A stretch of DNA of 28,405 bases. Origin: a virus. Location of the stretch: positions 1-28,405 of the IMG/VR virus record IMGVR_UViG_3300030109_004938, one strand, 5' to 3'. Below are positions 5,117 through 28,405 of this stretch, in pieces (within the stretch, counting starts at the first letter, position 1; the number at the start of each line of letters is the position of its first letter). The translations under genes and the position numbers were made by a program. The notes beneath the pieces are model-generated. The model searched no databases and had not been told where the DNA came from. It saw only the letters and a program-made list of their open reading frames with translations.

Positions 5117-5407
5117 ATGCCTTATAAAGTAGACGAACTAAATGATTTAGTATTTTATCAAAATTTAATCTCAGCAGATGAAGATGAGTATCTTCAAGTT
5201 AGACAAGCTTACATAGATGATTACGAAGAAAACAATAAAGATTCTATTAGAGATGATAAGGGTAATTTATTAATATTTGAAAATCCATATAGTGAAACCT
5301 TATTTAGGGATAAGTATTCAAAAGCTAAGCATTCTACAATAGTCGATCAGTTGAAGGATGATGATAGTATAAATGATATACTTGACAGAAATTTTAGAGA
5401 ACTATAA
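5117..5407 (+). CDS. Small acidic protein between baseplate genes, function unknown
   Basis: A 96-residue, strongly acidic, helix-rich protein starting 3 nt after the preceding stop and ending in a TAATG overlap with the giant baseplate gene. Visible sequence includes VDELNDLVFYQNLISADEDEYLQVRQAYIDDYEE and a C-terminal DDDSINDILDRNFREL. The ribosome site is weak (GTGAGAT within the end of the previous gene), so translation probably depends on coupling. No cysteines, membrane segment or catalytic motif were seen. Its tight placement between two baseplate genes suggests a small wedge or assembly subunit, but the sequence itself does not show this. Confidence 0.75.
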   Translation: MPYKVDELNDLVFYQNLISADEDEYLQVRQAYIDDYEENNKDSIRDDKGNLLIFENPYSETLFRDKYSKAKHSTIVDQLKDDDSINDILDRNFREL

Positions 5408-8400: not shown

Positions 8401-11400
8401 GATTGGATTTTTCGTGTATACGGTCACAATGGAGGAGCTGCTTCCGGTGTAACTTGGGCTGATAATTTTTATATGGATTTTACTTTGAAAAGTGAATCAG
8501 TTACTCAACCAGTTAAAAAACCATTTGAAGCGAAAATTGTTAGTGTTGTTAATACAAATCAAGTACAAGTAGATAAAAGCTATAATGATATTTCATTTGC
8601 ATTAGGTATTGAGGATACTGACTTAGATACAGATATATCGGTAGTAGATGGAAACATATCAGGATACGAAACTATTCCGCCTATTGCATATGAATCTTTT
8701 CAAGTATCATACCTAACACTAAATCCAAAAGATTTAAGAACTTATCTTAAATTTGAAAATGATTTATTCTTAACCACAAACTTTAAACAAGATAAAATAA
8801 ATGTTGATTGGCCACACTCTGTGGTGTACAAACTTTACGAGCCATTACCGAATGAATATAGAACATTAGATGAATGTATAATTGTCAAGCAAATGGCTGA
8901 TCCTTATGAAGATACTATAAAAATAGTAGATTTTGTTCCAGAAGAAACACCTAGTTTAGTATTAAAATCTCCTGATATGCAAAATGTACAAAGTCCAATT
9001 AAAAAAAGGTCAACTAGTTACAAAACCGAATCTGATATTTTAACAAGCGATAAAACAATATCTAATAATCTTAGAAATAGTTTTCTAAGTCAGAGTTTTG
9101 AAAGTGTAGAAGTAAATACAGAATATTCTCAATACAAAAATTTTGTTAATTTTAGCTCAACTGAAAAAAGAGTTAGGAATTTTAAATTAAAACTTGAACA
9201 GATAGAAGACCATAAAATTTCTAGTGCTTCCTATATTGGTGTGAGTGGTTCTTTAAAAGAAAGAAACTTATATCATTATAAAATAGAAGACATTAAAAAC
9301 AATTTTGATGGTTTTGAAAAATATATGTATTTCGAAAGTTCTTCATATGTTAGTAGCTCTATCGGAGTTTTCTATGATAATTCATGGCCAAAAACTAGCG
9401 GAGATGGTACTGTCGGTAACGAATATGTTTTGGCTCATACAACTTCATCACAAGCAAGCACTTGGTTTACAAATGCTATGGAATCTGCTTCATTGTATGA
9501 TGATGACAATCTATCTAAGCTTAGTTCTATATTACCTGAATACCTAGTACATGATGAAGACAATGATACTTATTTAAGGTTTGTCGATATGATTGGACAA
9601 CACTTCGACCATATTTGGGAGTATATAAATGCTTTATCAGATATAACAGACAGAAGAGATAAATTAGATGAGGGTATATCTAAGGATTTGTTATACAGTG
9701 TTGCTAAATCATTAGGTTGGAATTTAGATGATGCTAAAGACTTAGTTTCTTTACCAAGGTATGCTTTAGGTAAAGAGGTGACTGGTTCTGCTTACTCTGA
9801 TTATTCTGCTAAATCTGAAAGAGATATATCAAGAGAAATTTGGAGTCGTATTATAAACAATATGCCTTTCTTCTTAAAGAACAAAGGAACTATTAGAGCA
9901 TTAAAAGGATTAATAAATGTTTATGGTATACCATCTACAATATTAAGGGTTAAAGAATATGGAGGACCAAATCTACCAGATGATGCTTCGCCACAATATG
10001 AGATTACGAGAAAGTTTACGAGAGCTATAGATTTTAAAGGTGGACAATATGTGACAGTTCCTTGGGCTGACGATACAGATTCAAGTAGAAAGCCAGATAC
10101 GATTGAATTTAGATTTAGAGCAGTAAGTAGTTCTAATCAGATTTTGGTAAATAAAGATAATGATTTTATAATAAGATTAAAAGACAATGGTTCTACAGAT
10201 GATTATGGTTCTGTGGCATTTATGTTGTCAGGCTCTGGTGGATATGATGAAATAGAATCTACTTCTTTTCCTGTTTACGATGGTGATTTTTATTCTGTTA
10301 TGTTAGCTAGAACATCTGCTAGCGATAGTCCACATATATCACAATCATATGAATTGAATGTTGGTAAATACGATAGTAGCAGAAGTAAAATACATTTATT
10401 TAGTAGTACAACTATGACTATAACAGGTAGCATTGGTGGGTATAACGGAAATTATTCAGGAAGTGGTGATATTTACATTGGTGGTAGAACTAATTTTAGT
10501 TCGAGTAAAGATGGTTTTATTGGTGCGCCACTTACAGGTTCGCTGATGGAATATAGACATTGGACAGAAACATTAAATACATCATCTTTTAAAAATCATA
10601 TAGCAAATCCAAAAGCTTATGATGGTAATAGTGTTTCATCATCTTATGAAAATTTAGTTCTTAGATATTCTTTTGATGACAATAAAAGTTTGACTTCAGA
10701 TACAGAGGGTATTCGTGATGTGAGTTCCAATCAAACAGCAACTCTTTCAGGTTCACATAATGGATTTTCAGGCAATCCTTTTAGAAGTGTTGTGGATGAA
10801 CAAAAATCATTTATACCGAGCATAGGCGCACTTAGAAGAACTACCAATAAAATAAGGGTTGAAGATAATCCTTTGAAACCTGGTGAAATACTTTCGAGAA
10901 CTAAAAGGTCTACTTCGCCAGCATATGATAATGCACCTTTGGATTCAAATAAAGTTGGTATTTTCTTCGCACCAACAGATGTTATTAATAGAGACATTAT
11001 AGACTCTGTAGGTAATTTAGATTTCAATCAATACTTAGGAGATCCGAGAGACCAATTAAAAAATACATATAGGGGATTAGAAAGAATATCTGACCACTAT
11101 TGGAAAAAGTTTACTTCTACTAATAATTTTTGGGATTATATGAGATTGATAAAATACTATGACCAATCTTTATTTCCACAATTGAGAAAAATGATTCCTG
11201 CTAGAGCAAAGCCAGATATTGGTTTATTGATAGAACCAAATATATTTGAAAGACCAAAAGTTGTAGCAGCTAGAGATCCTGAAGCTGAAGATAGATATTT
11301 TTCTGGCTCAATAGATGTTTCTAAAGCTGTTGATGGTTTAATTGAAATAACTGGTTCGTTTAATGCAGGAAAAGTTATTTCAGATTATAGTTCCTATGAT

Positions 11401-12261
11401 GGTAGAATTGAAATGTATAGTTATGCAACCGAATCAGTTGTATCATCAAGTGGAGAAAATTTATTAAAAGAAGCTACTGGTTCAGTCGGAGATAGTTTTA
11501 TAGAATTAAGTATGTGGCAAAGATTGAATGATGCCGGACCTGGTATGACTAGAGATAAATACTATGCGACATCATCTATCGTATTTGGTGATTTACATTA
11601 TGATGAAGTATTTCAACCTATAATATCTGGATCTAGAATATATGGTAGGAATCAAAAAACAATGCCACATTATTCTTCTTCATTAAGTGCTTCTTTATAT
11701 ATAGCGTATTCTTCTTCTTTTTATAATGTAGATTTAGATAATCAAGTAGAAGAGGATACTGCTTTATTTAATAGAAATTATGCTGGAGTTAAAAATACAA
11801 AAAATACAACTATAGATGGTGGGCCTCCTGTTGAGATAATAATAACTGCACCAGCTAAATTAGTAACCACTAAAGATAGCGATTCTTCATTAAGAACAGG
11901 AGAGGGTATAGTATCTGAATTTAAAGATAAAGAACCTAAAAAAGATAAGTTCGATCCAAACATAATAGAAGAACCTCAAGCAATAGACCAACCTAAACTT
12001 GAAGGTAAACCAATCGGTAAACCAACAGCTATGAATCCAAAAGGAAAATTAAGAGGTCTTAAGGGATTAGCTAAATCAAAGCGTGGTACGCCAGAAAAAC
12101 CAATAACTGATGCTATGGTTGTGAGAGAAAAGCAAGAAAAAGTAAGAAAACAATTAGCAGATGATTCAAAATTTGAAAGTACAAATCAAGGAGTAAAAGG
12201 TAAAGGTCAAAAGAAAGTGACAATTAAAGGGAAAAAAAGTAAAGGAAAAGGAAAAAAGTAA
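5407..12261 (+). CDS. Giant baseplate protein with tail-protein-I-like and LamG-like regions
   Basis: One uninterrupted frame of 2284 codons, very large for a baseplate wedge protein. Residues 1-260 are beta-rich. About 265-400 and 970-1035 look like halves of carbohydrate-binding beta-sandwiches (GEWQRFDLKIAIPEDW at 978). They are separated by a Pro-rich linker (about 400-440) and two Trp modules (WIWNGVGDWD near 540, YRWDGSQWVTL near 947). About 1369-1530 resembles phage tail protein I: LSSILPEYLVHDEDND, HFDHIWEYINALSDI, then RIINNMPFFLKNKGTIRALK, ending VKEYGGP. Residues about 1540-1760 look LamG/concanavalin-like (DFKGGQYVTVPW, IEFRFRAV, IYIGGRTNF, GSLMEYRHWTETL). A second tail-associated region ends MIPARAKPDIGLLIEP (about 1930-1945). 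The last 110 residues are Lys/Pro-rich and probably disordered. It may fill the gpI or gp7 place between gp6 and the fibres. The frame is certain; domain names are by motif only. Confidence 0.75.
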   Translation: MSYNLSEEDKKLLNSFKQKRVGDKPYEDGYFLNKPDDFVYFELYDEAENLIQFKNLKGLGNFSTNTNYELEFYPASEIRNLGFTGGTFNVKYNFFRKLAGEDRAVLVRTKEGFEGDIVPNDAQIHITENGKVFFSDEESYLANPTGVEQLAIEDLKYQIDAISPSRTEVRLKAKNIEGSYIDDFIKVQESIRVRNVDGTINFVNNDSGTKQITISGTDFQFTDKMVNGNLIIPDVYTVEEIVVPKKTNVNIIQNPSGEILQTDNFGAPIKPTAPWDSTLHNDAVRVQDWSTGYNGFTGEGVHKGTANFGYHAKWVKGEGKTGGNCMKFPDTNDIFEEQFRNSFIPNSVRAEYDGNTKRWLGIDQRMQPLSSYGVLTEDEINVSLDVKTTVASKGVVVAAKFKNGLKTEEQPTEPPMGFVDPTQPPPTETKPDEPINFVPNTESGASSIESKPSGTISAIKEQLAFIAGKINPDYNDVLFDASVGDTLDAFFPGVSGVWIISEIDYDKDLVTWAPNVQPNLESDDVKGTKQGKLSPAGQWIWNGVGDWDTVAPTPLPSVPGTVNSQKYSNAVNGYVYTPDSALYPYMRRETEREKNEGWQTGTTGPETERKEVLLFKDDLVWKSIYKADDLDKFRVNSIESTMPGIFRDTVIDGITLYEDVFMGMPELDKQPGFIQSVTRMRPYEPQGEGDEQAGDTNISGKVDEPLQRAFIVFYNDGRGLETSNKYFLTKANSYNNRGKPSGNNIVTGQGLDGIQTLKSLNADFNTKVLENDNKFEVAVKLEGSFNSRYYAYYFFVGNKVYRLVDNFGNLGTSVDNTGNVTTATFDNDYPKNINDVEDLLGKDTTPDVIFDGVGKSAISDFFYAILEDSFIENDGTSRPTEQVLEGCGILGKEGVNLPKGNRNPAASPYEDGDIELNIYDDETGVVQYPEGIGDTLMIGSLSPEGLYRWDGSQWVTLQNGPPSFTQRAVYYSAKPTRAGEWQRFDLKIAIPEDWLIGEDWIFRVYGHNGGAASGVTWADNFYMDFTLKSESVTQPVKKPFEAKIVSVVNTNQVQVDKSYNDISFALGIEDTDLDTDISVVDGNISGYETIPPIAYESFQVSYLTLNPKDLRTYLKFENDLFLTTNFKQDKINVDWPHSVVYKLYEPLPNEYRTLDECIIVKQMADPYEDTIKIVDFVPEETPSLVLKSPDMQNVQSPIKKRSTSYKTESDILTSDKTISNNLRNSFLSQSFESVEVNTEYSQYKNFVNFSSTEKRVRNFKLKLEQIEDHKISSASYIGVSGSLKERNLYHYKIEDIKNNFDGFEKYMYFESSSYVSSSIGVFYDNSWPKTSGDGTVGNEYVLAHTTSSQASTWFTNAMESASLYDDDNLSKLSSILPEYLVHDEDNDTYLRFVDMIGQHFDHIWEYINALSDITDRRDKLDEGISKDLLYSVAKSLGWNLDDAKDLVSLPRYALGKEVTGSAYSDYSAKSERDISREIWSRIINNMPFFLKNKGTIRALKGLINVYGIPSTILRVKEYGGPNLPDDASPQYEITRKFTRAIDFKGGQYVTVPWADDTDSSRKPDTIEFRFRAVSSSNQILVNKDNDFIIRLKDNGSTDDYGSVAFMLSGSGGYDEIESTSFPVYDGDFYSVMLARTSASDSPHISQSYELNVGKYDSSRSKIHLFSSTTMTITGSIGGYNGNYSGSGDIYIGGRTNFSSSKDGFIGAPLTGSLMEYRHWTETLNTSSFKNHIANPKAYDGNSVSSSYENLVLRYSFDDNKSLTSDTEGIRDVSSNQTATLSGSHNGFSGNPFRSVVDEQKSFIPSIGALRRTTNKIRVEDNPLKPGEILSRTKRSTSPAYDNAPLDSNKVGIFFAPTDVINRDIIDSVGNLDFNQYLGDPRDQLKNTYRGLERISDHYWKKFTSTNNFWDYMRLIKYYDQSLFPQLRKMIPARAKPDIGLLIEPNIFERPKVVAARDPEAEDRYFSGSIDVSKAVDGLIEITGSFNAGKVISDYSSYDGRIEMYSYATESVVSSSGENLLKEATGSVGDSFIELSMWQRLNDAGPGMTRDKYYATSSIVFGDLHYDEVFQPIISGSRIYGRNQKTMPHYSSSLSASLYIAYSSSFYNVDLDNQVEEDTALFNRNYAGVKNTKNTTIDGGPPVEIIITAPAKLVTTKDSDSSLRTGEGIVSEFKDKEPKKDKFDPNIIEEPQAIDQPKLEGKPIGKPTAMNPKGKLRGLKGLAKSKRGTPEKPITDAMVVREKQEKVRKQLADDSKFESTNQGVKGKGQKKVTIKGKKSKGKGKK

Positions 12262-15974: not shown

Positions 15975-16328
15975 ATGAAATCAAGAAGTGCTAAAAATAA
16001 AGGTAAAAGATTACAGAACAATGTAAGAGACCTTTTGTTAGAAACATTTAATCAGTTAGAGCCCGATGACATTCGTTCAGCAATTATGGGCGAATCAGGT
16101 GAAGATATTAAATTATCACCAGCGGCTCGAAAACTAATCCCTTATTCATTTGAATGTAAGAATCAAGAAGCTATTAATATATGGTCATCACTACAACAAG
16201 CCGAAGAAAATAGTGGTGATTACGATCCTGTGTTGATATTTAAAAGAAACAGAAGTAAAACATACGCTGTACTTAACATTGAAAAATTTATAGAACTAAT
16301 TAATGAAAATAGTAAATCTTCTAAATAG
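15975..16328 (+). CDS. PD-(D/E)XK nuclease-like protein
   Basis: A 117-residue protein with the layout of a small PD-(D/E)XK nuclease of the Holliday-junction-resolvase or VRR-NUC kind. It has a basic N-terminal helix (NKGKRLQNNVRDLLLETF), then GESGEDIKLSPAAR with D44 as the metal-binding Asp, then SFECKNQEAINIW with E60-x-K62 on the next strand, then a helix LQQAEENSGDY with the conserved Gln, then DPVLIFKRNRSKTYAVL. It would cut branched or terminal DNA structures during replication and recombination. The ATG lacks a ribosome site and follows CAAGTA repeats. The 3' end overlaps the primase start by 26 nt, which supports coupled synthesis. The fold is well supported by motif order; substrate specificity is not known. 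Confidence 0.75.
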   Translation: MKSRSAKNKGKRLQNNVRDLLLETFNQLEPDDIRSAIMGESGEDIKLSPAARKLIPYSFECKNQEAINIWSSLQQAEENSGDYDPVLIFKRNRSKTYAVLNIEKFIELINENSKSSK

Positions 16329-17244
16329 AGTAATAGGAAATAATGGTAGACTTTTAAGTAAAGCCAATGAGTATATGTATTGGTCTCCTTTCGTATCTCA
16401 CCATAAACCAAAATTACAGATTAACATAAAAACTCAGAAGTGGCATTGTTGGATTTCCAATCAAGGTGGTCATAATCTATTTCAGTTATTCAAAAAATTA
16501 AAAGCAAGTAAAGAACAATTTGACGAACTAGCAGATATAGTTGGAAAACCACGCCAATCACTATCATCAAATCGTGAGAAAGTCAAGGAAAATATTGTAA
16601 GATTACCAAAAGAATTTAAACCTCTATGGAAAAGTGCAGATAGTATTATTAAAAGACACGCTTTGAATTATTTAAAAAAACGTGGAATTACAATGGGAGA
16701 CATAATTCGTTATAATGTTGGTTATTGTGAAGATGGTGTTTATGGTAATAGAATTATAATACCATCTTATAGTAGTGATGGTGAACTTAATTATTTTGTT
16801 GGTAGAAATATTTATGATGGTGGTATGAAATATAAAAATCCACCTGTATCTAAGGATGTAATTGGATTTGAGTTATTTATAAATTGGGATGAACCTATTG
16901 TATTATGTGAGGGTTCATTTGATGCTATGGCTATCAGAAGAAATGCCATCCCCTTATTTGGTAAAACCATACCAAAAAAATTGAAAATGAAAATCTATGA
17001 AAAAAAGGTTAAGAAGATATATATATTATTAGATAGTGATGCTGTTAAAGACTCTATAAAAATAACAGATGATTTGATGAGAAATGGCATTGATGTCTAT
17101 TTTGTTAATCTAAGGGAAGAAGATCCTTCTGATATGGGATTTAAAAAAGTAATAAATCTTATAAAGGAAACTAAACAAACTTCTTTTTCTGATTTGATGA
17201 GGATGAAATTAAATGGCAAAACAAAAAAATATATGGAAATTTAA
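16303..17244 (+). CDS. 61: DnaG/gp61-type DNA primase with degenerate zinc ribbon
   Basis: A 313-residue protein, close to T4 gp61 in size. It makes RNA primers for lagging-strand synthesis with the replicative helicase. The N-terminus aligns with the zinc ribbon: WSPFVSHHKPKLQIN (residues 27-41) and KWHCWISNQGGHNLFQLF. Where the family has CxxC...CxxC, this protein has S28, V31, C49 and S52. The catalytic part has NRIIIPSYSSDGELNYFVGRN, then TOPRIM motifs EGSFDAMA (Glu before DA) and YILLDSDAVKDS (Asp-x-Asp), and EEDPSDMG. It overlaps the upstream nuclease gene by 26 nt and the next small gene by 32 nt. The start at 16303 is chosen because the ribbon begins about 25 residues later. Priming or helicase-coupled function despite the lost zinc ligands is inferred. 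Confidence 0.85.
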   Translation: MKIVNLLNRVIGNNGRLLSKANEYMYWSPFVSHHKPKLQINIKTQKWHCWISNQGGHNLFQLFKKLKASKEQFDELADIVGKPRQSLSSNREKVKENIVRLPKEFKPLWKSADSIIKRHALNYLKKRGITMGDIIRYNVGYCEDGVYGNRIIIPSYSSDGELNYFVGRNIYDGGMKYKNPPVSKDVIGFELFINWDEPIVLCEGSFDAMAIRRNAIPLFGKTIPKKLKMKIYEKKVKKIYILLDSDAVKDSIKITDDLMRNGIDVYFVNLREEDPSDMGFKKVINLIKETKQTSFSDLMRMKLNGKTKKYMEI

Positions 17245-17434
17245 TGATGATGAGTGGAAAGTTCATATATCAGATATTGCCTTGGTAAATGATATAAAAA
17301 TAAAATTTGATTTGAAAGATTCTACTACTATTTATTATGAGAGCGGAAGTCTCTCTGAAGAAACTTCTTGGGATATTGTAGTACCAAACGATAAAATAGA
17401 AGAAGTAAAAAAATTTATAGAGGATAATACTTGA
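17213..17434 (+). CDS. Small protein between primase and Mre11-Rad50 fusion, unknown
   Basis: A 73-residue acidic protein overlapping the primase end by 32 nt; its TGA stop overlaps the TTG start of the nuclease-ATPase gene (TTGA at 17431-17434). An AGGATG sequence lies ahead of its ATG as a possible ribosome site. It begins MAKQKNIWKFNDDEWKVHIS, continues with short strands (IKIKFDLKD, TIYYESG), and ends with SWDIVVPNDKIEEVKKFIED, suggesting a small alpha/beta fold. No known family is recognised. Double overlap with two DNA-replication genes makes a replication or repair accessory role likely by context. Confidence 0.7.
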   Translation: MAKQKNIWKFNDDEWKVHISDIALVNDIKIKFDLKDSTTIYYESGSLSEETSWDIVVPNDKIEEVKKFIEDNT

Positions 17435-20400
17435 TAAAAGAAAATGTTGTTAAAGTACCATTTCGTAAATTAAAATACATACACCACATTTCAGATATAC
17501 AAATTCGTAATCTTAAAAGACATATAGAATACGAAGAAGTTTTTGAACGCACATACGAACAGGTAAAAAAACATAAAGATAATGCCGTAGTCTATATCGG
17601 TGGTGATATAGCTCATTCTAAAACTGAAATGTCGCCTGAATTAGTCGATCAGCTCTCTCGTTTATTTAAGAATCTAGCAGATATATGTCCTACAATTATT
17701 ATTGCAGGCAATCACGATTGCAACTTAAATAATCTTTCGAGAATGGATGTTCTTTCTCCAATTGTAAATAATCTAAAACACTCAAATTTACATTACTTGA
17801 AACATAGTGGTGTGTATAAATGTGCTGATGTAAAATTTGTTGTTTGGGATGTATGGGAAAAAGAAGATGATTATATTGAAGCTAAAGACTTTGAGGGTGA
17901 GACAAAAATAGTTCTTTTTCACGGAACAGTTGATAAGTCGGAAACGGATTTAGGATTCTTTCTTCCATCAGATGTTAAGATTGCTAAATTCAAAGGTTAT
18001 GATTTGGGATTGCTTGGTGACATCCACAAAAGACAGCATCTCAATAAGAAGGAAACCATTTCTTATTGTGGTTCATTGGTACAACAGAATCACGGAGAGG
18101 GATTAAGTCATGGTTATTTATTGTGGGATGTTCCGAAAAGAAAGTCTGAGTATATAGAAATACCAAATGACTACGGCTATTATACAATTAATATTGATAA
18201 TGGTAAAGTGCCAGATTGTCCTGATATTCCAAAGAAAGCTCGTTTAAGAGTTAGGGTTTCTAATACAAAACCATCTGAATTAAAAAAAGCTATGAGTCTT
18301 ATTCATAGTAAATATGGAATCAAAGAAGTAACTGTAACTAAAACAGATTCTATATATTCTACTGAAAAAGTTAGAGGACAACATATAGCAGTTGGTAATG
18401 TAAGAGATTCTGATTATCAATACAATTTGATAGAAGAGTATCTTAAAACAAATCATTTTGTCGATGAGGATACACTTATCGATATTAAAAAAATTAATGA
18501 AGATTTAAATAGTAGATTGCCAGAAGATGATGTCCAAAGAGGTATAAACTGGCAAGTCAAAAAATTTGAATTTGATAATATGTTCTCATACGGAGAAGAT
18601 AATGTGGTAGACTTTACTAAACTAAGTGGTATTATTGGAATGTTTGCACCAAACGCTAGTGGTAAATCTTCTTTATTAGATGCTCTTTCATTCTGTTTAT
18701 TTGATAGGTCATCAAGAGCTTATAAAGCAATAAATGTTCTTAATAATAAAAAAGATTGGTTTAAATGTAAAGCTACTTTAGAAGTAGAGGGTAGAGAATA
18801 TTTTATAGAAAGAAATGCTAAAAAACAAAAGAATGGTCACGTTAAAGTAAATGTAGATTTTTATACATTTGCTGATGATGGCGAAAAGATTTCAATGAAT
18901 GGTGACCAAAGAAGAACTACAGATGTAAACATTCGTAAGTTAATTGGAACTTATGATGACTTTGTAATGACAGCACTTTCTCTACAAACTAATTCAACTG
19001 TATTTATTGATAAGACACAAAAAGAAAGAAAAGAGTTATTAGCTTCATTTATGGGTATAGGTGTATTTGACCAACTATATACTTTAGCTGCTGAAGAAAT
19101 TCACGATGTACAGGCTCTTCTTAAATCTTTTAGAGATAATAATTATGATACGGATTTAGCGAGTATAAAAGAAAGTTTGGCAGTTTTTAAGAAAGATTCT
19201 AAAAAACTTACTTCAAATAAAAAAGAAATGGTTGCTGATAAAAAACGTGAAGATAGAAAAATTATAAGTATTACTAAAAAATTAAAAAAAGTTGATAATT
19301 CTGCTTTAGATATATCTGAATTAGAAGAACGTAAAGTCAATTTAACAAACTCATTAAATAAATATGATGACAGAGTTGGTGAGATTGCCACTTTATCAGA
19401 AAAATATTCTGTAGAAGAAACTGAACTAAATGAAAAAATAAAAATCTATAAAGAAAATGAGATAGATAAAAAATTTGCACAATTAGAACAGTATAAATTA
19501 GACAAAAGTAATAATCAAATTGAGATTGACAAATTAAAAATTGAAGTTAAAAATAAATTAGATAAGATTGATAAGCTTGGTAATTTAGAACACGATCCTA
19601 ATTGTAGTTATTGTATGAGTAATCCATTTACATTGGATGCTATGGAAACAAAGAAAAGATTGAATGATGATAAGATGTTAGCAGATACTTTTGTAAAACA
19701 ATCTGATAATTTAGAAAGTATCATAAATGGATTATCACACATTACTGCACATAAACAACAGATGGATGAATCCATACAGAATTTAAGTTTACTAACATCT
19801 AATATAAGTAAATTAGATAGTGAGAAAAAACTAAATACAGAAAAAAGAAAGAATCTCATAAATCAATTAGCAATCATAGAAGATAAAATTAACCTTTATC
19901 ACGAACAAGAAAAAGATATTATTTACAATAAAGGTTTATACAACGATATAGATTCTGCACAAAACGAATCTGATAGGTTAGAAATTGAAATAGAAGATTT
20001 AGATAAAAAACTAAATGTTGTAAATGGTGAAATTAAAGTATTAGAAACAAATCGTAAAAGTATATTAGATAATATTAAAAAAGTAGAAGATTTAGAAGGA
20101 AAGTATGCTGCTTATCAATATTATTTAGATGCCATCAAACGTGATGGTATACCTTACGAACTAATATCAAAAGCTCTTCCAACTATTGAGGGTGCTGTAA
20201 ATGATATACTTTCTCAAATTGTAGACTTCTCTATGATATTAGAGATGGATGGTAAGAATGTAAATTGTTATATCGTTTATGACAATGATAATGTTTGGCC
20301 TCTTGAACTAAGTAGTGGAATGGAAAGGTTTATATCTTCATTGGCTATGAGAGTTGGTTTGATAAATGTATCCAATCTACCAGCTGCTAACTTTCTGGCA

Positions 20401-20586
20401 ATTGATGAGGGTTGGGGAACTATGGATTCGGATAATCTAAACTCTGTTTATAATCTATTTCAGTATCTTAAAACTCAGTTTCAATTTACAATGATTGTTT
20501 CTCATATAGATTCTATGAGAGATGCTGTAGACACACTATTAGAAATTAAAAAAGAGAATAACTTTTCTAACGTTTTATTTGATTAG
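17431..20586 (+). CDS. 47-46: Single-chain Mre11-Rad50 (gp47-gp46/SbcD-SbcC) fusion
   Basis: A 1051-residue protein starting at TTG, with GAGGA 6 nt upstream and no Met until residue 67. Residues 1-350 are the Mre11/gp47 phosphoesterase: HISDIQ (D22; Gln24 where His is usual), GGDIAHSK (D59), GNHD (93-96), FHGTVD (H164), GDIHKRQ (G196, H199). Residues about 375-1051 are Rad50/gp46: P-loop APNASGKSS (406-414), long coiled coils, zinc hook CSYC (725-728), signature ELSSGMERF (959-967), Walker B FLAIDEGWGTMD (988-999). The complex resects DNA ends for recombination and recombination-dependent replication. T4 encodes it as two proteins; here one frame covers both, with no break. The first P-loop Gly is Ala. 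It follows the primase cassette and ends convergent with the RHH-like gene, overlapping it by 20 nt. Confidence 0.9.
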   Translation: MIKENVVKVPFRKLKYIHHISDIQIRNLKRHIEYEEVFERTYEQVKKHKDNAVVYIGGDIAHSKTEMSPELVDQLSRLFKNLADICPTIIIAGNHDCNLNNLSRMDVLSPIVNNLKHSNLHYLKHSGVYKCADVKFVVWDVWEKEDDYIEAKDFEGETKIVLFHGTVDKSETDLGFFLPSDVKIAKFKGYDLGLLGDIHKRQHLNKKETISYCGSLVQQNHGEGLSHGYLLWDVPKRKSEYIEIPNDYGYYTINIDNGKVPDCPDIPKKARLRVRVSNTKPSELKKAMSLIHSKYGIKEVTVTKTDSIYSTEKVRGQHIAVGNVRDSDYQYNLIEEYLKTNHFVDEDTLIDIKKINEDLNSRLPEDDVQRGINWQVKKFEFDNMFSYGEDNVVDFTKLSGIIGMFAPNASGKSSLLDALSFCLFDRSSRAYKAINVLNNKKDWFKCKATLEVEGREYFIERNAKKQKNGHVKVNVDFYTFADDGEKISMNGDQRRTTDVNIRKLIGTYDDFVMTALSLQTNSTVFIDKTQKERKELLASFMGIGVFDQLYTLAAEEIHDVQALLKSFRDNNYDTDLASIKESLAVFKKDSKKLTSNKKEMVADKKREDRKIISITKKLKKVDNSALDISELEERKVNLTNSLNKYDDRVGEIATLSEKYSVEETELNEKIKIYKENEIDKKFAQLEQYKLDKSNNQIEIDKLKIEVKNKLDKIDKLGNLEHDPNCSYCMSNPFTLDAMETKKRLNDDKMLADTFVKQSDNLESIINGLSHITAHKQQMDESIQNLSLLTSNISKLDSEKKLNTEKRKNLINQLAIIEDKINLYHEQEKDIIYNKGLYNDIDSAQNESDRLEIEIEDLDKKLNVVNGEIKVLETNRKSILDNIKKVEDLEGKYAAYQYYLDAIKRDGIPYELISKALPTIEGAVNDILSQIVDFSMILEMDGKNVNCYIVYDNDNVWPLELSSGMERFISSLAMRVGLINVSNLPAANFLAIDEGWGTMDSDNLNSVYNLFQYLKTQFQFTMIVSHIDSMRDAVDTLLEIKKENNFSNVLFD

Positions 20587-20740
20587 AATATAATATATTC
20601 TTAGGTTTACTTTCACCTCTTTTTAAACTCAATACATATTGATTCAGGACTGCGCTCATCGTAGTGCTCTCTTCTTTAACATGCAGTCTAAACCAGTCCA
20701 TTAGGCTCTCTTCTATAGTAAATGAATATTTCTTTTTCAT
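20567..20740 (-). CDS. Ribbon-helix-helix-like small protein on opposite strand
   Basis: A 57-residue protein (62 if started at 20755) read on the minus strand. I chose the ATG at 20740 because GGAG, 9 nt upstream, is a good ribosome site, while the ATG at 20755 has none. The sequence has an RHH/CopG-like pattern: strand KYSFTIEE, helix SLMDWFRLHVKEE, turn, helix TMSAVLNQYVLSLKR, then a polar basic tail (ESKPKNILYSNQIKR). Such proteins bind DNA as dimers and act as repressors or antitoxins; no toxin-like partner is visible. The stop lies inside the end of the Mre11-Rad50 gene (20-nt overlap). It is the only convincing minus-strand gene in the window. The RHH call is by pattern and is moderately supported. 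Confidence 0.6.
   Translation of the reverse strand: MKKKYSFTIEESLMDWFRLHVKEESTTMSAVLNQYVLSLKRGESKPKNILYSNQIKR
20586..20600. promoter_or_regulatory. Perfect AT palindrome at the convergent gene ends
   Basis: GAATATA-A-TATATTC is a 7-bp perfect inverted repeat with a one-base centre. It begins at the last base of the Mre11-Rad50 stop and lies within the end of the RHH-like gene. It could be a regulator half-site pair or a weak end signal, but there is no T-run. Perfect short AT palindromes can occur by chance in this composition. Confidence 0.3.
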
Positions 20741-20830: not shown

Positions 20831-23800
20831 ATGGCTGCTGTCAAACGATTCAATAAATTACTCGGACTTGAAAACATAGATGTATTAATTGATGATAGAG
20901 AAACTTCTAGATTTATCACTATTACTGATATGCCACAAAGTCTACCTCAAGGAAAGAGCGCTTTTCTTATAGAGGTCTCTCCGTATCTAAAAGAGGGAAC
21001 AGAGTTACAAATTGATTTTATAGATTCTAATGGACAGAGTATTTATTCAGAACCTGTACAGAATTATTTAGAGGGAACTTCTAGAACTATATCAGTAGAG
21101 GTTTATGATGATACTGCTGCTGGAATCGCCACGTTAATAATCGTAGGTGAGTTAGAATTTATACCACAAGATCCTGGTCAATTTAGTGATGTAACACCTG
21201 TGCCAGAAGAGTTTCGAGGAGCATATAATATAAGACTTACTCGTGAAGTTATTATAAATCCAGCAGAGATAAATACTCAACCTATAAAATTTTACGCTTC
21301 TCCACAATTAAGAGCCATTGAACAAAGATTTGGTACATTAGAAAGAGAAGAAGGATCTCCAATTGCTTCATCTTCAATATTTCAAATTGAGGGTTTACCA
21401 GCATCAGGATTTGAACTAGCACCAGCTTCAAGCGGTGAAGATGAAATCTTAGCAAAGGGTGCTGGAATAAAAGAAAAAAGAGATGTGAAAAGGGAAGGTC
21501 CTCCAAAAGGTGATGTAAAAGGGGATAAAGCAGATAAAGAATTTAATAAACGATCTACCAAAAAACAAAGTGTTAGAAAAGATAGTAGGTCATCAAGATC
21601 TAGAAGAATAAAACGAAGAAATTCTCCAATAGAATATCCATATAGTTTTAGAATTATAGGTGGAGACCACACATTTGATACTACTCAAATAGGTGGTGAT
21701 ATTTTATTTTCAGATATAACATCTTCTATTTATGACAATAGAGCTTTATCAGATGTTGGATTAGGAACTGCTGATGATATTTCTTTTCAAATAGTAACTG
21801 ATACGAGAGATAGAAATCATCCAACACATTATACAGCATCAATCGCACAATTAGAAAATAATACAACAGCATATGTAAGTACACCTTTCACAAAACAAAA
21901 TAGAGAGGGAGAATATATAGTATTACCTTTACAAGCAAATGCTCAAGTATTTTATGAAGTAGAACCTAGCGCTTCTTATAGTTTAAAAAATATAGTTTCT
22001 TATGCCGATGTTAGATTAGGAGATATGAGAACTTTTTCAGGTGATATATTTAAAGCAAAAATTTATGTTAGGGCTGAGGGTTCTTTTGATGATTTTAAAT
22101 TATTAGCCGAAGTTCCATTAGAGTCACCTGAACTTATGGTAAATTCTGATTCTATAGGTGTTGGTGAGAGAACAGGTTACTTTGTATCTGAAGAAGATAA
22201 AAATACATATTGGGTTGTTTCAGGTAGCACAAATGGTTTGTCAGCCCCAACATCAACTACTGTGGCTTCTTTTGATAATGAAACAATGTTGGATTCCGTT
22301 ATGCTATCAGGAAGTGTATCGACATTTACAGACCAAATAAAATTTCAATTAAAAGAAGATTACAAATTTGATTTAACTGATGGAATAGATTATACTTTAT
22401 CTTTTAAAGCTAAAGCAGAAAAGGGAACTGATAATCGAGCATTAATGTTGTTATATGTTTCAGGTTCTTCTATGAATAAAGCAATAGATTTATTTACTGA
22501 TGATGTTACAGGAACTCAAATATCAGAACCATTTCAATACGGAAAAAGAATGGGAGCTTTGGAAATAGATTCAGATGAGGCTTCAGTAAAAGATTTCAGA
22601 ACAGTAAGTCACAATTTTAACTCAGATTTAACTGGTGATGCCAATGTTCAGTTTAGAGTCGTTTCAGGAAAATGGAACATATCAGATGTTTCTGTTAGAC
22701 CAGCTGCTGACACAGGATTCTCACCAGCCTTTATTCAATTTAAACAAGAACTGCCTGCTGAATTACAACATAAGAGACCTGAGACTTTAGAATTTTTAAC
22801 AGAATTTTATGATATAAATAATAATATAGCAGATGAAATCGCTTTTACAACTGGTTCGGTATTTACTGGCGCTAACATAGTAATAAGTGGTAATGATAAT
22901 ATTCAAAGTGGTGATATGTTTTTGGGTGGAGATACGACTGGAAGTGGTATTCACTTTGGTGGTGTAGATTCAAAACTACCTGAAACTGGTAAAGATGGTG
23001 CTGATGGGTCTGGCTTTATTCGTTCTATAGGCTATCAAGGATTTATATCAGCATCAGCTCAATCAGGCTCTTATGGATTTATGATTTATAGTGGTTCTGT
23101 ATTGCCAGATAGTGGGGATAGTTACAAAGGTGTTGGTTTAGAATTAGTTGGAGAAAGTGGTTCTTTAAAATTTAGAACTAGCCCAAGCGTATTTGATGTG
23201 CAAGCAGATGCTTTCTTTGTGGGTAGACAGAGTTTACAATTTTTAAGTGGTTCTAGTGGTAATATAGAAATAAGTTCATCTAAATTTCACGTAGATAGTA
23301 AAAATGAAATTTTTAGTGTAGGACAACCAACTGGTAGTAGAATACAATTTGATGGAACTGATTTGATTATGAGTTCATCTAAATTTTTCTTAGGTGGTGG
23401 TGGACAATTTGTTAGTGGTTCTGAGGGTAATATAGAAATAAGTTCTTCTAACTTCCATCTAACACCAGAGGGCGATGTTACTATGAGTGGTATTATAACT
23501 GCTGAGGGTGGTAATATTGGAGACTTTCAAATAATAGATGGACAGATTAGTGGTAGTAATATCACAATGAACGCAGATAATTCTACAATATTTAAGACAG
23601 ACCAAGGTCCAGGTAGTGACTCAGGTGAATCTAATTTGTCATTAAAAAATGAATACTATATAGATTTTTCACCGACAGTAGAAAACCCTGATAATGCTTT
23701 TGTTAAATTTGGTCCGAACTTTACAGTAGATAAAGATGGTGTTCTTATAGCGAGTGGTGCTACATTCATTGGAACAATTACTGCTAGCGCTGGTAAGATA

Positions 23801-26800
23801 GGTGGATTCACTACTGATAGTCATTCGTTTCATAGCGCTAATATATTCATAAGTGGTAGTCCAAAAGCAGGTGGATTGCCAACAGATGAATATATGTTTA
23901 TTAGTACTTCAAACTTTAACGTAAAAGAAAATGGTGATGTAACTGGTTCTTCAGTTTTATTTACAGGTGGAATAATTGGTGGTGCTTCAATAACAGAAGA
24001 TAAACTTGCTTACAAAGACAATTGGGCAATATCAGCTTCAGATAATCAGAATGAAGTTTTTATACAATCTGATAATTTTAATGTAAAGCAGAGTGGTGAT
24101 ATAACAGGTTCAAAAGTATTACTTACAGGTGGTAAGATAGGTGGATTTGTATTGACTGGCAATTCCGTATCAAGTTCAAATGGAAATTTAAGATTAAAAG
24201 ATAGTGGTCAAATAACAGGTTCACAAGTATTATTTAGTGGTGGTAAGATAGGTGGATTTAATATAGAATCTAATAAAATTATAAACGCAGAAGAAACAGT
24301 AGAATTAAGTAGTGTTACACACGGATTAAATGTAAAAGATAATTTAGGTGTTGAAAGAGTATCTATAAAATCAGGATCGTTTCAAACAATAGGTGGTGGA
24401 ACACAATATATCGAAAACAAAAGTTTTGAAGATCAGACAGTAGCAGCTGGTAGAAATCGTAGGTCTGGCTCTAATATTACCAGTTGGTCTTTTTCTACGA
24501 CTGGTGGCGCTTTTATTGCTCTAACAGATAGAAGTGGTTATGTATCTGATGATGATGCAGTAAGTGGTGATATTACTTTAGATGTTGTTGTTCCAGGTGG
24601 TTCTGACAATTATTCAGGAAGTAATCAGTATGAAATAGTTCAGATTATGACAGCATCTTTTGCTGCTGGTGATACTTTAAGTTTTAGTTCTGTTGCAAGA
24701 TTTAGTTCATCGTTTGGGGCATTAGGAAAAGACAGAGCATTAGGTCCTCAATATTTTAGATTAGAGTATAGTGGTTCAGATGAAGTTGGATACATACCAT
24801 TTTTACCAGCAAATGAATATACTGCTTCAAACGGATATGGTGAATACTTTTTAGGAAGTGGACAATATAATAGTTTTGGTGCTTCAGCAGAATTGCCAGC
24901 TGCCGCAGGATTTGTCAAACTAATATTAACAGGAAGTATTAATGACGATGGTGGATTCAATATTGAAAAACCACTTTTTGCAGCTAACAAAGGAACTGTA
25001 AATTCAGATTTAGGTAAGAAAACATTTACTAAAACAGTAGTTGGAAGTACGAGTAAAGAATTTCCTGAAACAGAAATAACATTTGATAATTTTTCTGTTC
25101 GTAGTAATACGAGAAAAGTTGAACTAACACCACAAGGTTTATTAATATATAACTCAGAAGATAGTTTCATTAAAATGACAGGCGCTGGTATTGAAGTCAG
25201 AGGTGGTAGTGGAGTAGCTAATTTTGGAACTTCTATAAATAGAGAAAGTTTTACAAACGATAGTCAGGTTGCTGGTACACTAGCCGCTCCATCATTACAA
25301 GCATATCAGGCAGATCCAGAGGCTATAGGAACAACTGCTTCTGATGGAAATGTAGCTGATTACGCAAAAGGTAATCACGTTCATATAATAGCTGGTAGTA
25401 CGATTAATAGTGCTTTAGATGGAACTACCATAACCAATGGAATTTGGAATTCTACATTTGGTGCAACTGCTAATTCTTTAATTAGTGGTTCTTTCACAGC
25501 TTTATCTTCTTCATTAGCTGGTAGAATTACAGATGAAGAAAGTGATTTTACAGCAGCTGGCATTAGTGGTTCTTTTCAATCATTAACTTTAACTGCTGGT
25601 GATGGTTTAACTGGTGGTGGAACATTAGCTAGCGACAGAACTTTTGCAGTAGGAGCTGGAAACTTTATAGATGTTCAAGCAAATCAGGTTGATGTTGATT
25701 TATCTGAGGCAGCTGAAGCGGCTATCGCTAATGGTGATTACGTTTTATTTTTAGATGGTGGTGCTACTGGCACATTAAAGAAAGATGCTTTAGCAGACTT
25801 AGTGACACTACTTGCTGGCGCTGGTATGACAGCAACAAATTCAGTATTGAATGTTATAGGTGGAACAGGCATTGATGTAGCAGCTAATGAACTTACAGTA
25901 GACTTTTCAGATTCAGATTTACAGACTGCTATTAGTGGTTCTTTTACGGCACCAAGTTCTAGTATAGCATCAAGAGCTACAGCATTAGAGGGTAGAACAT
26001 TAACTGCTGGTGATGGTTTAACTGGTGGTGGAACATTGGCTAGTGACAGATCATTTGCTGTTGGAGCTGGAACTGGTATTGATGTAGCATCTGATGCTAT
26101 TTCTGTAGATGTATCAGACTTTATGACCAATGGTTCGGATAATAGAGTCTTAACTGCAACTGGTGCAGACGCAATGAATGCAGAAGCTAATCTCACATTT
26201 GATGGAACAGACTTAGGTGTTGCAGCCAAAATATTTCACGTAGGTGATGCCGATACATTTATAAATTTTACAGATGATGATATAAACATTCAAGTCGGTG
26301 GTGTTAATTTTATAGACCTTACTCAAGATAGTACGAGCGAAATAACTTTTAATGAAGCTGGAGCAGACTTAGATTTTAGAGTTGAGGGTGATACTGACGC
26401 AAATCTGTTTTTTGTTGATGCTGGTAATGATAAGATAGGCATAGGAACAAAAACTTCATTAACATCATTACTTACAGTAGACGGAGACATAACAGTTACT
26501 AATTTTACTGCTAGTGGTGATATAAAAACTTCAAATTTATTTGTAACATCTAGTGGTGAAAGTGTTGTTCAAATTGGTAATAAAGGTACTACCTTAAATA
26601 AATTTGAACTTCATCGTGATGGTGAAAGAAAATGGGTTTTTTATAATGATGGTAGAACCAATGGATTTGCTGGACAAGACTCATTAGTTTTTAAACACGG
26701 TGTTTCTAGTGATGGGGATGACCATATTAATTTCTATATGAAACCAGATGACCAAAATGTTTATTTTGAGGGTAATGTAACGAGTTCAGCTACAGGTTCA

Positions 26801-28405
26801 TTTGGCGCAGTCAATGTGGCTGGATTTGCTGGAGCATCAACCAACCTAACAGACTTTTCAGCTTCTATTTCATCTAGACTTCAAGTTAGTGAGGGAGACA
26901 TTACGAGTGTAACTGCTGGTGATGGTTTAACAGGTGGTGGTGCTACTGGCGCAGTCACACTAGACGTTGGTGCTGGAACTGGTATAACTGTAAATGCTAA
27001 TGATATTGCAACGGATGATTCAGCAATTGTTCACGATGATTTGAGTGGATTTGTAGCAAACGAACACATAGACCACAGTGGAGTTTCTATAACTGCTGGT
27101 GATGGTTTAACGGGTGGTGGAACAATAGCCTCAACAAGAACTATTAATGTTGTTGGTGGAGATGGTATAACTGCAAATGCCAACGATATTGCTATTACAG
27201 CAGCTCAGACTACAATAGAGTCTATATACAAAGCAGACTTAGTAATTGGAGAAGATTCCCAAACTAAGATAGATTTTGAAACAGTAAACGAAATACATTT
27301 TGATGTAAACAATAAAGAATTATTAAACTTAACAGGCGATATAGTTAGTGGTTCAGCTGCTTCTACAGGTTCTTTTGGAAGAATTGAAGCTAGTGGAGTT
27401 TCTGATACATTAGCCGCAGCCATAGTAGCTGAAATTGATAATGACGAAATACCGATTGCTAAACTAGCAGAAGATGCTGTGACAATAACTGCTGGTGATG
27501 GTTTAAAAACTGGTGGTTCTGTAACATTAGGTGGTTCAGTAACATTAAATATAGATGTAAGTGATTTTGTAGGAGATGGTTTACAAGACCTTGGTTCAGA
27601 AAATATAGGAGTAGATGTTAGTGACTTCGCAGGAACTGGACTTAAAGATGAAGGCTCAGAAAATTTAGCAGTTGATTTTGGTGATTCTACATTAGCCGCA
27701 AACATTAGTGGTTCTTTTACTGCTCTTTCATCATCATTAGCTGGTAGAGTTACAACTGAAGAGGGTAATGTAGATGACTTAGAAGCTATAACTTTGACTG
27801 CTGGTGATGGTTTAACAGGCGGTGGAACATTAGCTAGCGACAGAACATTTGCTGTAGGTGCTGGTAATTTTATAGATGTACAGGCAAATCAAGTCGATGT
27901 AGATTTATCTGAAGCTAGTGAAGCGGCTCTGGCAAATGGAGACTATGTATTATTTTTAGATGGTGGTGCTACTGGCACATTAAAGAAAGAAGCATTTGCT
28001 GATGTAGCTACATTATTGGCTGGTGCTGGTATGACGGCTACCGATTCAGTATTGAATGTTATAGGTGGAACAGGTATTAGTGTAGCAGCTAATGAGGTTA
28101 CAACAGATGATGGAGCAATTGTTCACGATAATTTAAGTGGATTTGTTGCTAATGAACATATAGACCACAGTGGAGTAACATTGACTGCTGGTACTGGTTT
28201 AAGTGGTGGTGGTACTATAGCAGCTAATAGAACTTTTAATGTAGACTTTTCAGATTCAGATTTACAGACTGCTATTAGTGGTTCTTTCACAGCACTCTCA
28301 TCTTCTTTGGCTGGAAGAGTTACAACCGAAGAGGGTAATGTAGATGACTTAGAAGCCCTAACTTTAACTGCTGGCGATGGTTTAACTGGTGGTGGAACAT
28401 TAGGA
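20831..28405 (+). CDS. Giant repeat-built tail fibre, N-terminal 2525 residues (3' end outside window)
   Basis: One frame open from the ATG at 20831 (AGGA 8 nt upstream) to the window edge: 2525 codons with no stop. Residues 1-205 are a conserved-looking head (MAAVKRFNKLLGLENIDVLI) likely for attachment. Residues 208-270 are a basic linker with SRSSRSRRIKRR. About 270-780 are beta-rich modules with a short collagen-like GKDGADGSG near 720. About 800-1140 carry repeats of the types SGNIEISSS and TGGKIGGF. About 1195-1395 resemble a carbohydrate-binding sandwich. From 1588 to the end there are eight LTAGDGLTGGG-type units with SFTALSSSLAGR and ANEHIDHSGV modules, plus a LDFRVEGDTDANLFFVD module near 1850. 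It is a host-receptor fibre or similar appendage. The end, where an intramolecular chaperone might lie, is not in the window. Minus-strand frames opposite it are shadows. Confidence 0.8.
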   Translation, partial: MAAVKRFNKLLGLENIDVLIDDRETSRFITITDMPQSLPQGKSAFLIEVSPYLKEGTELQIDFIDSNGQSIYSEPVQNYLEGTSRTISVEVYDDTAAGIATLIIVGELEFIPQDPGQFSDVTPVPEEFRGAYNIRLTREVIINPAEINTQPIKFYASPQLRAIEQRFGTLEREEGSPIASSSIFQIEGLPASGFELAPASSGEDEILAKGAGIKEKRDVKREGPPKGDVKGDKADKEFNKRSTKKQSVRKDSRSSRSRRIKRRNSPIEYPYSFRIIGGDHTFDTTQIGGDILFSDITSSIYDNRALSDVGLGTADDISFQIVTDTRDRNHPTHYTASIAQLENNTTAYVSTPFTKQNREGEYIVLPLQANAQVFYEVEPSASYSLKNIVSYADVRLGDMRTFSGDIFKAKIYVRAEGSFDDFKLLAEVPLESPELMVNSDSIGVGERTGYFVSEEDKNTYWVVSGSTNGLSAPTSTTVASFDNETMLDSVMLSGSVSTFTDQIKFQLKEDYKFDLTDGIDYTLSFKAKAEKGTDNRALMLLYVSGSSMNKAIDLFTDDVTGTQISEPFQYGKRMGALEIDSDEASVKDFRTVSHNFNSDLTGDANVQFRVVSGKWNISDVSVRPAADTGFSPAFIQFKQELPAELQHKRPETLEFLTEFYDINNNIADEIAFTTGSVFTGANIVISGNDNIQSGDMFLGGDTTGSGIHFGGVDSKLPETGKDGADGSGFIRSIGYQGFISASAQSGSYGFMIYSGSVLPDSGDSYKGVGLELVGESGSLKFRTSPSVFDVQADAFFVGRQSLQFLSGSSGNIEISSSKFHVDSKNEIFSVGQPTGSRIQFDGTDLIMSSSKFFLGGGGQFVSGSEGNIEISSSNFHLTPEGDVTMSGIITAEGGNIGDFQIIDGQISGSNITMNADNSTIFKTDQGPGSDSGESNLSLKNEYYIDFSPTVENPDNAFVKFGPNFTVDKDGVLIASGATFIGTITASAGKIGGFTTDSHSFHSANIFISGSPKAGGLPTDEYMFISTSNFNVKENGDVTGSSVLFTGGIIGGASITEDKLAYKDNWAISASDNQNEVFIQSDNFNVKQSGDITGSKVLLTGGKIGGFVLTGNSVSSSNGNLRLKDSGQITGSQVLFSGGKIGGFNIESNKIINAEETVELSSVTHGLNVKDNLGVERVSIKSGSFQTIGGGTQYIENKSFEDQTVAAGRNRRSGSNITSWSFSTTGGAFIALTDRSGYVSDDDAVSGDITLDVVVPGGSDNYSGSNQYEIVQIMTASFAAGDTLSFSSVARFSSSFGALGKDRALGPQYFRLEYSGSDEVGYIPFLPANEYTASNGYGEYFLGSGQYNSFGASAELPAAAGFVKLILTGSINDDGGFNIEKPLFAANKGTVNSDLGKKTFTKTVVGSTSKEFPETEITFDNFSVRSNTRKVELTPQGLLIYNSEDSFIKMTGAGIEVRGGSGVANFGTSINRESFTNDSQVAGTLAAPSLQAYQADPEAIGTTASDGNVADYAKGNHVHIIAGSTINSALDGTTITNGIWNSTFGATANSLISGSFTALSSSLAGRITDEESDFTAAGISGSFQSLTLTAGDGLTGGGTLASDRTFAVGAGNFIDVQANQVDVDLSEAAEAAIANGDYVLFLDGGATGTLKKDALADLVTLLAGAGMTATNSVLNVIGGTGIDVAANELTVDFSDSDLQTAISGSFTAPSSSIASRATALEGRTLTAGDGLTGGGTLASDRSFAVGAGTGIDVASDAISVDVSDFMTNGSDNRVLTATGADAMNAEANLTFDGTDLGVAAKIFHVGDADTFINFTDDDINIQVGGVNFIDLTQDSTSEITFNEAGADLDFRVEGDTDANLFFVDAGNDKIGIGTKTSLTSLLTVDGDITVTNFTASGDIKTSNLFVTSSGESVVQIGNKGTTLNKFELHRDGERKWVFYNDGRTNGFAGQDSLVFKHGVSSDGDDHINFYMKPDDQNVYFEGNVTSSATGSFGAVNVAGFAGASTNLTDFSASISSRLQVSEGDITSVTAGDGLTGGGATGAVTLDVGAGTGITVNANDIATDDSAIVHDDLSGFVANEHIDHSGVSITAGDGLTGGGTIASTRTINVVGGDGITANANDIAITAAQTTIESIYKADLVIGEDSQTKIDFETVNEIHFDVNNKELLNLTGDIVSGSAASTGSFGRIEASGVSDTLAAAIVAEIDNDEIPIAKLAEDAVTITAGDGLKTGGSVTLGGSVTLNIDVSDFVGDGLQDLGSENIGVDVSDFAGTGLKDEGSENLAVDFGDSTLAANISGSFTALSSSLAGRVTTEEGNVDDLEAITLTAGDGLTGGGTLASDRTFAVGAGNFIDVQANQVDVDLSEASEAALANGDYVLFLDGGATGTLKKEAFADVATLLAGAGMTATDSVLNVIGGTGISVAANEVTTDDGAIVHDNLSGFVANEHIDHSGVTLTAGTGLSGGGTIAANRTFNVDFSDSDLQTAISGSFTALSSSLAGRVTTEEGNVDDLEALTLTAGDGLTGGGTLG
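23240..24280 (+). repeat. Coding repeats SGNIEISSS / TGGKIGGF in fibre
   Basis: Within the fibre frame, two copies of a 'SGS-GNIEISSS-F' unit occur (about residues 803 and 863). Related 'SxxFNVKxxGDVTGSxVLFTGGxIGGF' units follow near residues 888, 983, 1043, 1097 and 1133, at irregular spacing of about 36-95 residues. They look like rungs or trimer segments of a beta-helical shaft. Nucleotide copies differ at many positions, so they are old coding repeats, not a recent DNA duplication. Confidence 0.6.
25592..25890 (+). repeat. Copy 1 of a long internal duplication (735-residue period)
   Basis: About 100 codons match 27797-28095 in the same order with no gap: LASDRTFAVGAGNFIDVQAN, VDVDLSEA, GDYVLFLDGGATGTLKK, LLAGAGMTAT, SVLNVIGGTGI. 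The offset is 2205 nt. Many differences are at third codon positions, for example GGAGCTGGA versus GGTGCTGGT. Confidence 0.75.
27797..28095 (+). repeat. Copy 2 of the long internal duplication
   Basis: The partner of 25592-25890. It diverges after GGTGI, where this copy continues with a TTDDGAIVHDNLSGF module also seen at about 27000-27060, while copy 1 continues with VDFSDSDLQTAISGSF. That last module reappears downstream of this copy, at 28241. The modules have therefore been shuffled as well as duplicated. Confidence 0.75.

Follow-up and report, generated by a model that had tools for sequence, protein, structure and literature searches.

A single-chain Mre11-Rad50 protein encoded by a tailed phage

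Does a tailed phage encode the Mre11 nuclease and the Rad50 ATPase in one polypeptide, or does a long open frame in a metagenomic contig only give the appearance of such a protein? The question is raised by positions 17431-20586 (+) of IMG/VR record IMGVR_UViG_3300030109_004938, of which the whole analysed stretch of 28,405 nucleotides is termed the window. That these enzymes usually are two polypeptides, as a sequence-only reading of the window had stated, agrees with the records that we examined, as T4, T5-like phages, herelleviruses and E. coli all have two genes for them. T4 gp47/gp46, T5-like D12/D13, and SbcD/SbcC of herelleviruses and E. coli comprise by motif the same two activities and share with the window gene the order nuclease then ATPase, but each is a pair of separate polypeptides, whose genes frequently have small ones between them, and identity to the window protein is 22-30% where they are matched.

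One frame for nuclease and ATPase

ORF analysis of the window gives a single open frame of 1051 codons (coordinates with the stop included) that begins with TTG; a GAGG lies shortly 5' of this start, and the TTG overlaps by four bases the TGA of the preceding 73-aa ORF. All motifs named in the sequence-only reading are present in this one frame, with GGDIAHSK, GNHD and GDIHKRQ in the nuclease half, and the P-loop APNASGKSS, CSYC, SSGMER as signature and LAIDEG as Walker B in the ATPase half. In profile searches, PF00149 (Metallophos) matches residues 17-200 and passes its cut-off (E 1.6e-8), SMC_N matches residues 376-1044 with E 4e-8 and 33.4 bits, which is under its cut-off of 40, and the SbcC-like phrog_77 matches residues 372-1048 (E 1e-43). 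The protein is neither a canonical SbcD nor a canonical SbcC by the curated NCBIfam cut-offs, as it scores 26.2 bits against 77.65 for TIGR00619 and 92.4 bits against 478.5 for TIGR00618. Walker A, signature, Walker B and a CxxC hook between coiled coils characterize the second half as Rad50/SbcC ATPase, and a Mre11/SbcD domain followed by a Rad50/SbcC domain in one uninterrupted frame is the arrangement of R555-type fusions. An AlphaFold2 model of the single chain (mean pLDDT 82, pTM 0.46) has PDB structure matches that include E. coli SbcCD, T. maritima MR and M. jannaschii MR. The window protein is a genuine one-chain Mre11-Rad50 of a tailed phage (Table 1).

Table 1. Coordinates of the fusion gene, its parts and its neighbours in the window
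Feature	Position	Strand	Basis or remark
RusA-like or PDDEXK nuclease gene	15975..16328	+	PF24608, phrog_244; overlaps primase gene
DnaG-like primase, directly upstream in overlapping gene string	16303..17244	+	DNAG_N, phrog_47
73-aa ORF, function unassigned	17213..17434	+	without family match (Pfam, PHROG); overlaps primase and fusion gene; in 41 loci
Fused Mre11-Rad50 (SbcDC) gene, 1051 aa	17431..20586	+	220 co-linear loci; whole-chain dN/dS about 0.07-0.12
Calcineurin-type nuclease domain, residues 1-233	17431..18129	+	PF00149, conservation, model
Putative capping domain, residues about 234-305	18130..18345	+	model strands 238-277, helix 281-295; assigned by position
Low-confidence, probably flexible segment, residues 306-326	18346..18408	+	pLDDT 40-49 at 306-320; between cap and helix-loop-helix
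Helix-loop-helix, helices 327-341 and 346-361	18409..18513	+	model, alignment; presumed Rad50-binding role (T. maritima, human Mre11)
Inter-domain linker, residues 362-372, roughly 11 residues, unstructured	18514..18546	+	model, alignment spacing
Rad50 ATPase N-lobe, residues 373-543, Walker A APNASGKSS, Q519	18547..19059	+	profiles, alignment
Coiled coil, residues 544-902, zinc-hook apex	19060..20136	+	model helices; fastest-evolving segment
Zinc hook C725-S-Y-C728	19603..19614	+	both Cys in 79/79 homologues
Rad50 ATPase C-lobe, residues 903-1051: signature, Walker B, D-loop, H1025	20137..20583	+	profiles, alignment
Weak terminator-like hairpin after fusion gene	20649..20667	+	2 sites vs 0.9 expected; weak

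The RusA-like gene, the primase gene, the 73-aa ORF and the fusion gene form a tight string and are probably co-translated. A primase match ends less than 600 nt upstream of the fusion in 183 of the 205 loci with enough upstream sequence. Two baseplate wedge proteins, one of them gp25-like, are encoded in the window as well, which places it in a contractile-tailed phage. Two giant ORFs, at 5407-12261 (2284 aa) and 20831-28405 (more than 2525 aa), are without convincing Pfam or PHROG match, the PHROG scan of the second covering its first 1500 aa; many relatives have them next to the fusion gene, too, the first in 92 loci and the second in 151.

Relatives of the fused gene and selection on both halves

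Full-length single-chain homologues, for which a search of phage and metagenome proteins had been suggested, exist in hundreds of water-borne phages. The IMG/VR scans indicated at least 588 relatives, and the 80 with the highest scores in each scan were fetched, so that close relatives only are represented, and both halves lie in one frame at 220 of the examined loci, which come from many metagenomes and may be independent or related. In a tblastn search of phage records, two matches covered at least 80% of the query, Mel-JY01 (39%) and LR756508 (40%, in two pieces). Exceptions to the single frame are a split herellevirus system, the interrupted LR756508 gene, two records that match in the ATPase half only, three contigs truncated within the gene, and pT24, in which only the nuclease half was matched while the annotated CDS is a 1310-aa fusion. 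No split at the linker was found among the close relatives examined. The genome contig scan gave one match, a full-length homologue with 51% identity (L083, PCAX01000028.1, Chloroflexi MAG), and among the plasmid matches listed there were only distant ones to the ATPase half and no full-length fusion. The L083 contig carries a RusA-like gene and a primase gene upstream and, albeit binned to a bacterium, is probably a phage contig.

Could a stop or frameshift near position 18500 have been missed, so that two adjacent genes appear as one through an assembly or sequencing artefact? The window itself is represented by only one metagenomic contig, which leaves room for such an error, but the identical frame continues across the join in 220 loci, isolate genomes are fused as well (Mel-JY01 with a CDS of 3201 nt, pT24, PTm1, PAU and MA9V-1), and synonymous sites have diverged while the protein has been kept. 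As 220 loci hold both halves in one frame, assembly error and chance are excluded as explanations, and we consider an artefact vanishingly improbable. A stop or frameshift near 18500, or homologues that are always split at this point, had been named as observations that would speak against the fusion; the frame shows no stop or frameshift, and among close relatives no split homologue was found. An apparent stop in L131 lies upstream of the real start and is no real interruption, and apparent stops in L128 and L142, which come only a few codons into the match, are read likewise.

Whole-chain dN/dS is about 0.07-0.12 at a synonymous divergence (dS) of about 0.6-1.4. The values are 0.02-0.06 for the nuclease domain in the usable comparisons, 0.02-0.04 for the ATPase C-lobe and about 0.12-0.20 for the coiled coil, with the L031 row left out, as the comparison is ungapped and these sequences contain indels. 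Purifying selection acts on both halves.

In LR756508, a 484-kb phage, an insert of about 1 kb (L002 6680-7597) interrupts the fusion gene directly after GDIHKRQ. It contains an HNH/TnsA-like endonuclease ORF (PF08722, phrog_1271), and the gene halves lie in ORFs of 243 and 861 aa. An Rfam search gave no intron match for the insert, which represents either a homing-gene split or an unrecognised intron. In another relative (L117, 6001-9177), an additional loop of about 20 residues is found at the same site (residues about 186-222), and the loop after the metal-binding GDIH tolerates insertions.

Active site, linker and putative mode of action

Conservation and spacing were assessed in an alignment of 79 homologues. 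We take D22, Q24, D59, N94, H164, D197 and H199 to be the metal ligands and H95 to be the catalytic His, with the correspondence to Mre11 positions taken partly from the literature (PMC3175470). Seven of these eight positions, D22, D59, N94, H95, H164, D197 and H199, are identical in all 79 sequences, as are the ATPase-side columns G411-K412-S413, C725, C728, S962-G963, D992-E993 and H1025. The invariant nuclease positions include the equivalents of P. furiosus D8, D49, N84, H85, H173 and H208. Motif II reads GDxxH instead of GDxxD, with H62 in 79/79, and an Asp (D197) occupies the position of P. furiosus H206, likewise in 79/79; both departures from SbcD have been reported for Mimivirus R555 (PMC3175470). 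At the first metal-ligand position (P. furiosus H10), 59 of the homologues have His and 20 have Gln, and the window clade, with relatives down to 52% identity, has DxQ instead of D-x-H in motif I (Q24, window 17500-17502).

Because Gln replaces the first metal-ligand His in the window clade, nuclease activity of the window protein is uncertain. With Q24 in 20 of the 79 homologues including the window, and D197 in all of them, nuclease chemistry might be altered or lost, and the main function of the fusion might then be to clamp or tether DNA ends. Both Gln and Asp are capable of metal binding, however, every other ligand and the catalytic His are invariant, and the low nuclease-domain dN/dS in the usable comparisons speaks for retained activity, which renders a mere clamp or tether quite unlikely.

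As to the join itself, the sequence-only reading had placed a short linker at about residues 350-375. A short link is indeed present, but in the model much of this range is the second helix of the helix-loop-helix (346-361), and the unstructured part comprises only about residues 362-372. Between residue 361 and the conserved W374, 77 of the 79 homologues have a spacing of 13 and the other two a spacing of 14. For the T. maritima complex, 9-12 residues have been estimated to bridge the 28 A from the end of Mre11 to the start of Rad50 in native geometry (PMC3175470). As in R555-type fusions, cap and helix-loop-helix are retained and the linker length is near these published values.

The sequence-only reading had also supposed an effect of the fusion on the way in which the complex opens for cutting. 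This supposition is not borne out by the anatomy, in which the join is C-terminal to the helix-loop-helix, the link has about the length predicted for native geometry, and a flexible segment before the helix-loop-helix is kept. The helix-loop-helix of Mre11 binds the coiled-coil root of Rad50 in known complexes (PMC3175470; PMC12446458), and in P. furiosus Mre11 a 14-residue loop joins nuclease and helix-loop-helix (PMC8824468). As the additional peptide bond lies past the helix-loop-helix and the flexible stretch before it is kept, the fusion would not be expected to hinder the usual nuclease motion.

From the observed domain order, conservation, linker length, single frame and neighbours, we infer that the protein most likely functions as a dimeric, R555-like single-chain Mre11-Rad50 in phage recombination-dependent replication and DNA-end processing. 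Two chains would pair via their nuclease domains and their ATP-bound ATPase heads to an M2R2 assembly with two zinc-hooked coiled coils. Each helix-loop-helix would probably dock in cis, at the root of the coiled coil in the same chain, and nuclease and ATPase would be produced at exactly 1:1. The active site would be blocked by the ATP-bound heads, and DNA-end binding and ATP hydrolysis would permit the nuclease to cut. DNA ends could thereby be resected or trimmed for recombination-dependent replication, with participation of the adjacent primase and RusA-like nuclease, as in the case of T4 gp46/gp47; it is this T4 analogy, together with the neighbouring primase, that suggests the replication role. 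Host-DNA degradation or SbcCD-like removal of DNA hairpins could instead be the main task, given that the T4 gp46/gp47 record describes these proteins as needed for recombination and host-DNA degradation, and that SbcCD cuts hairpins. The conserved site adjoins a primase and not host-takeover genes, which is not decisive but lets us regard such a main task as less likely.

Relation to known fusions

Mre11-Rad50 fusions as such are not new. To the question whether they had already been described, the answer is that Yoshida, Claverie and Ogata in 2011 reported fusions in Mimivirus (R555), a Bacillus phage, plasmids and eukaryotes, with R555 and twelve further fusions as well as 249 GOS and 288 BIOME homologues, 93% of the latter from viral fractions; they found primases on GOS scaffolds and suspected a phage origin for some of the abundant aquatic metagenomic homologues (PMC3175470). 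In the accessible text of a 2021 jumbo-phage survey, SbcC/SbcD is near universal and the fusion is unmentioned. The window protein is a well-supported further example of the R555-like viral type. It shares with Mimivirus R555 the domain order, GDxxH, the Asp for P. furiosus His206, the helix-loop-helix and the short linker, and with the R555 class the abundance in aquatic viral metagenomes and the primases as neighbours, but it comes from a tailed phage and not from a giant virus, has 1051 instead of 1351 aa, and its clade has DxQ instead of DxH. The best predicted-structure matches, in BFVD, are full-length "DNA repair exonuclease" proteins of giant viruses (17-26% identity), with those of Tupanvirus, Harvfovirus, Yasminevirus and Catovirus ahead of pT24 and PTm1.

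Among phages, Microcystis phage Mel-JY01 encodes a full-length homologue (WWT39521.1, 37-39% identity, hence more than 60% of residues differ from the window protein) with a primase two genes upstream, annotated just as "AAA domain containing protein". The proteins of the jumbo phages pT24, PTm1 and PTm5 (Tenacibaculum), PAU (Sphingomonas) and MA9V-1 and MA9V-2 (Chryseobacterium) are likewise single chains with N-terminal phosphoesterase and C-terminal Rad50-like ATPase, but have about 1300 aa and no annotation beyond DNA repair, metallo-phosphoesterase or gp288; the identity of pT24 to the window protein is about 29%, over part of the nuclease only. A single-chain version also occurs in a 735-kb phage. 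A BFVD entry of Listeria phage LMTA-57 (1009 aa) might be another fusion, while Listeria phage WIL-1 is split.

Of 14 long contigs of the family (115-276 kb), all of which may be incomplete genomes apart from the Mel-JY01 record, none has a strong SbcC-like match besides the fused ORF, and their further phosphoesterase matches fall in short ORFs of 220-278 aa that stand alone. A tree built from 22 fused sequences and 6 split ones has a branch with support 96/94 with the fused sequences, those of the Tenacibaculum, PAU and Chryseobacterium phages among them, on one side, corresponding to one change; its sampling of split forms is thin, and several of its branches are long. Tentatively, a single ancient fusion may have been exchanged between phages and Mimivirus-like eukaryotic viruses and may be the sole Mre11-Rad50 that a large group of aquatic phages has; the 2011 paper, from which this reading departs, took the fusions to be recurrent.

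With its natural 1:1 ratio, about 1050 residues and short coiled coils, the single chain could suit structure work, and the Gln that naturally takes the place of a metal-ligand His is amenable to testing. For the fusion class, many full-length phage members are added, where the metagenomic homologues of 2011 were mostly short pieces of uncertain origin, and by supplying such members the present analysis supports the suspicion that many of these metagenomic homologues are of phage origin.
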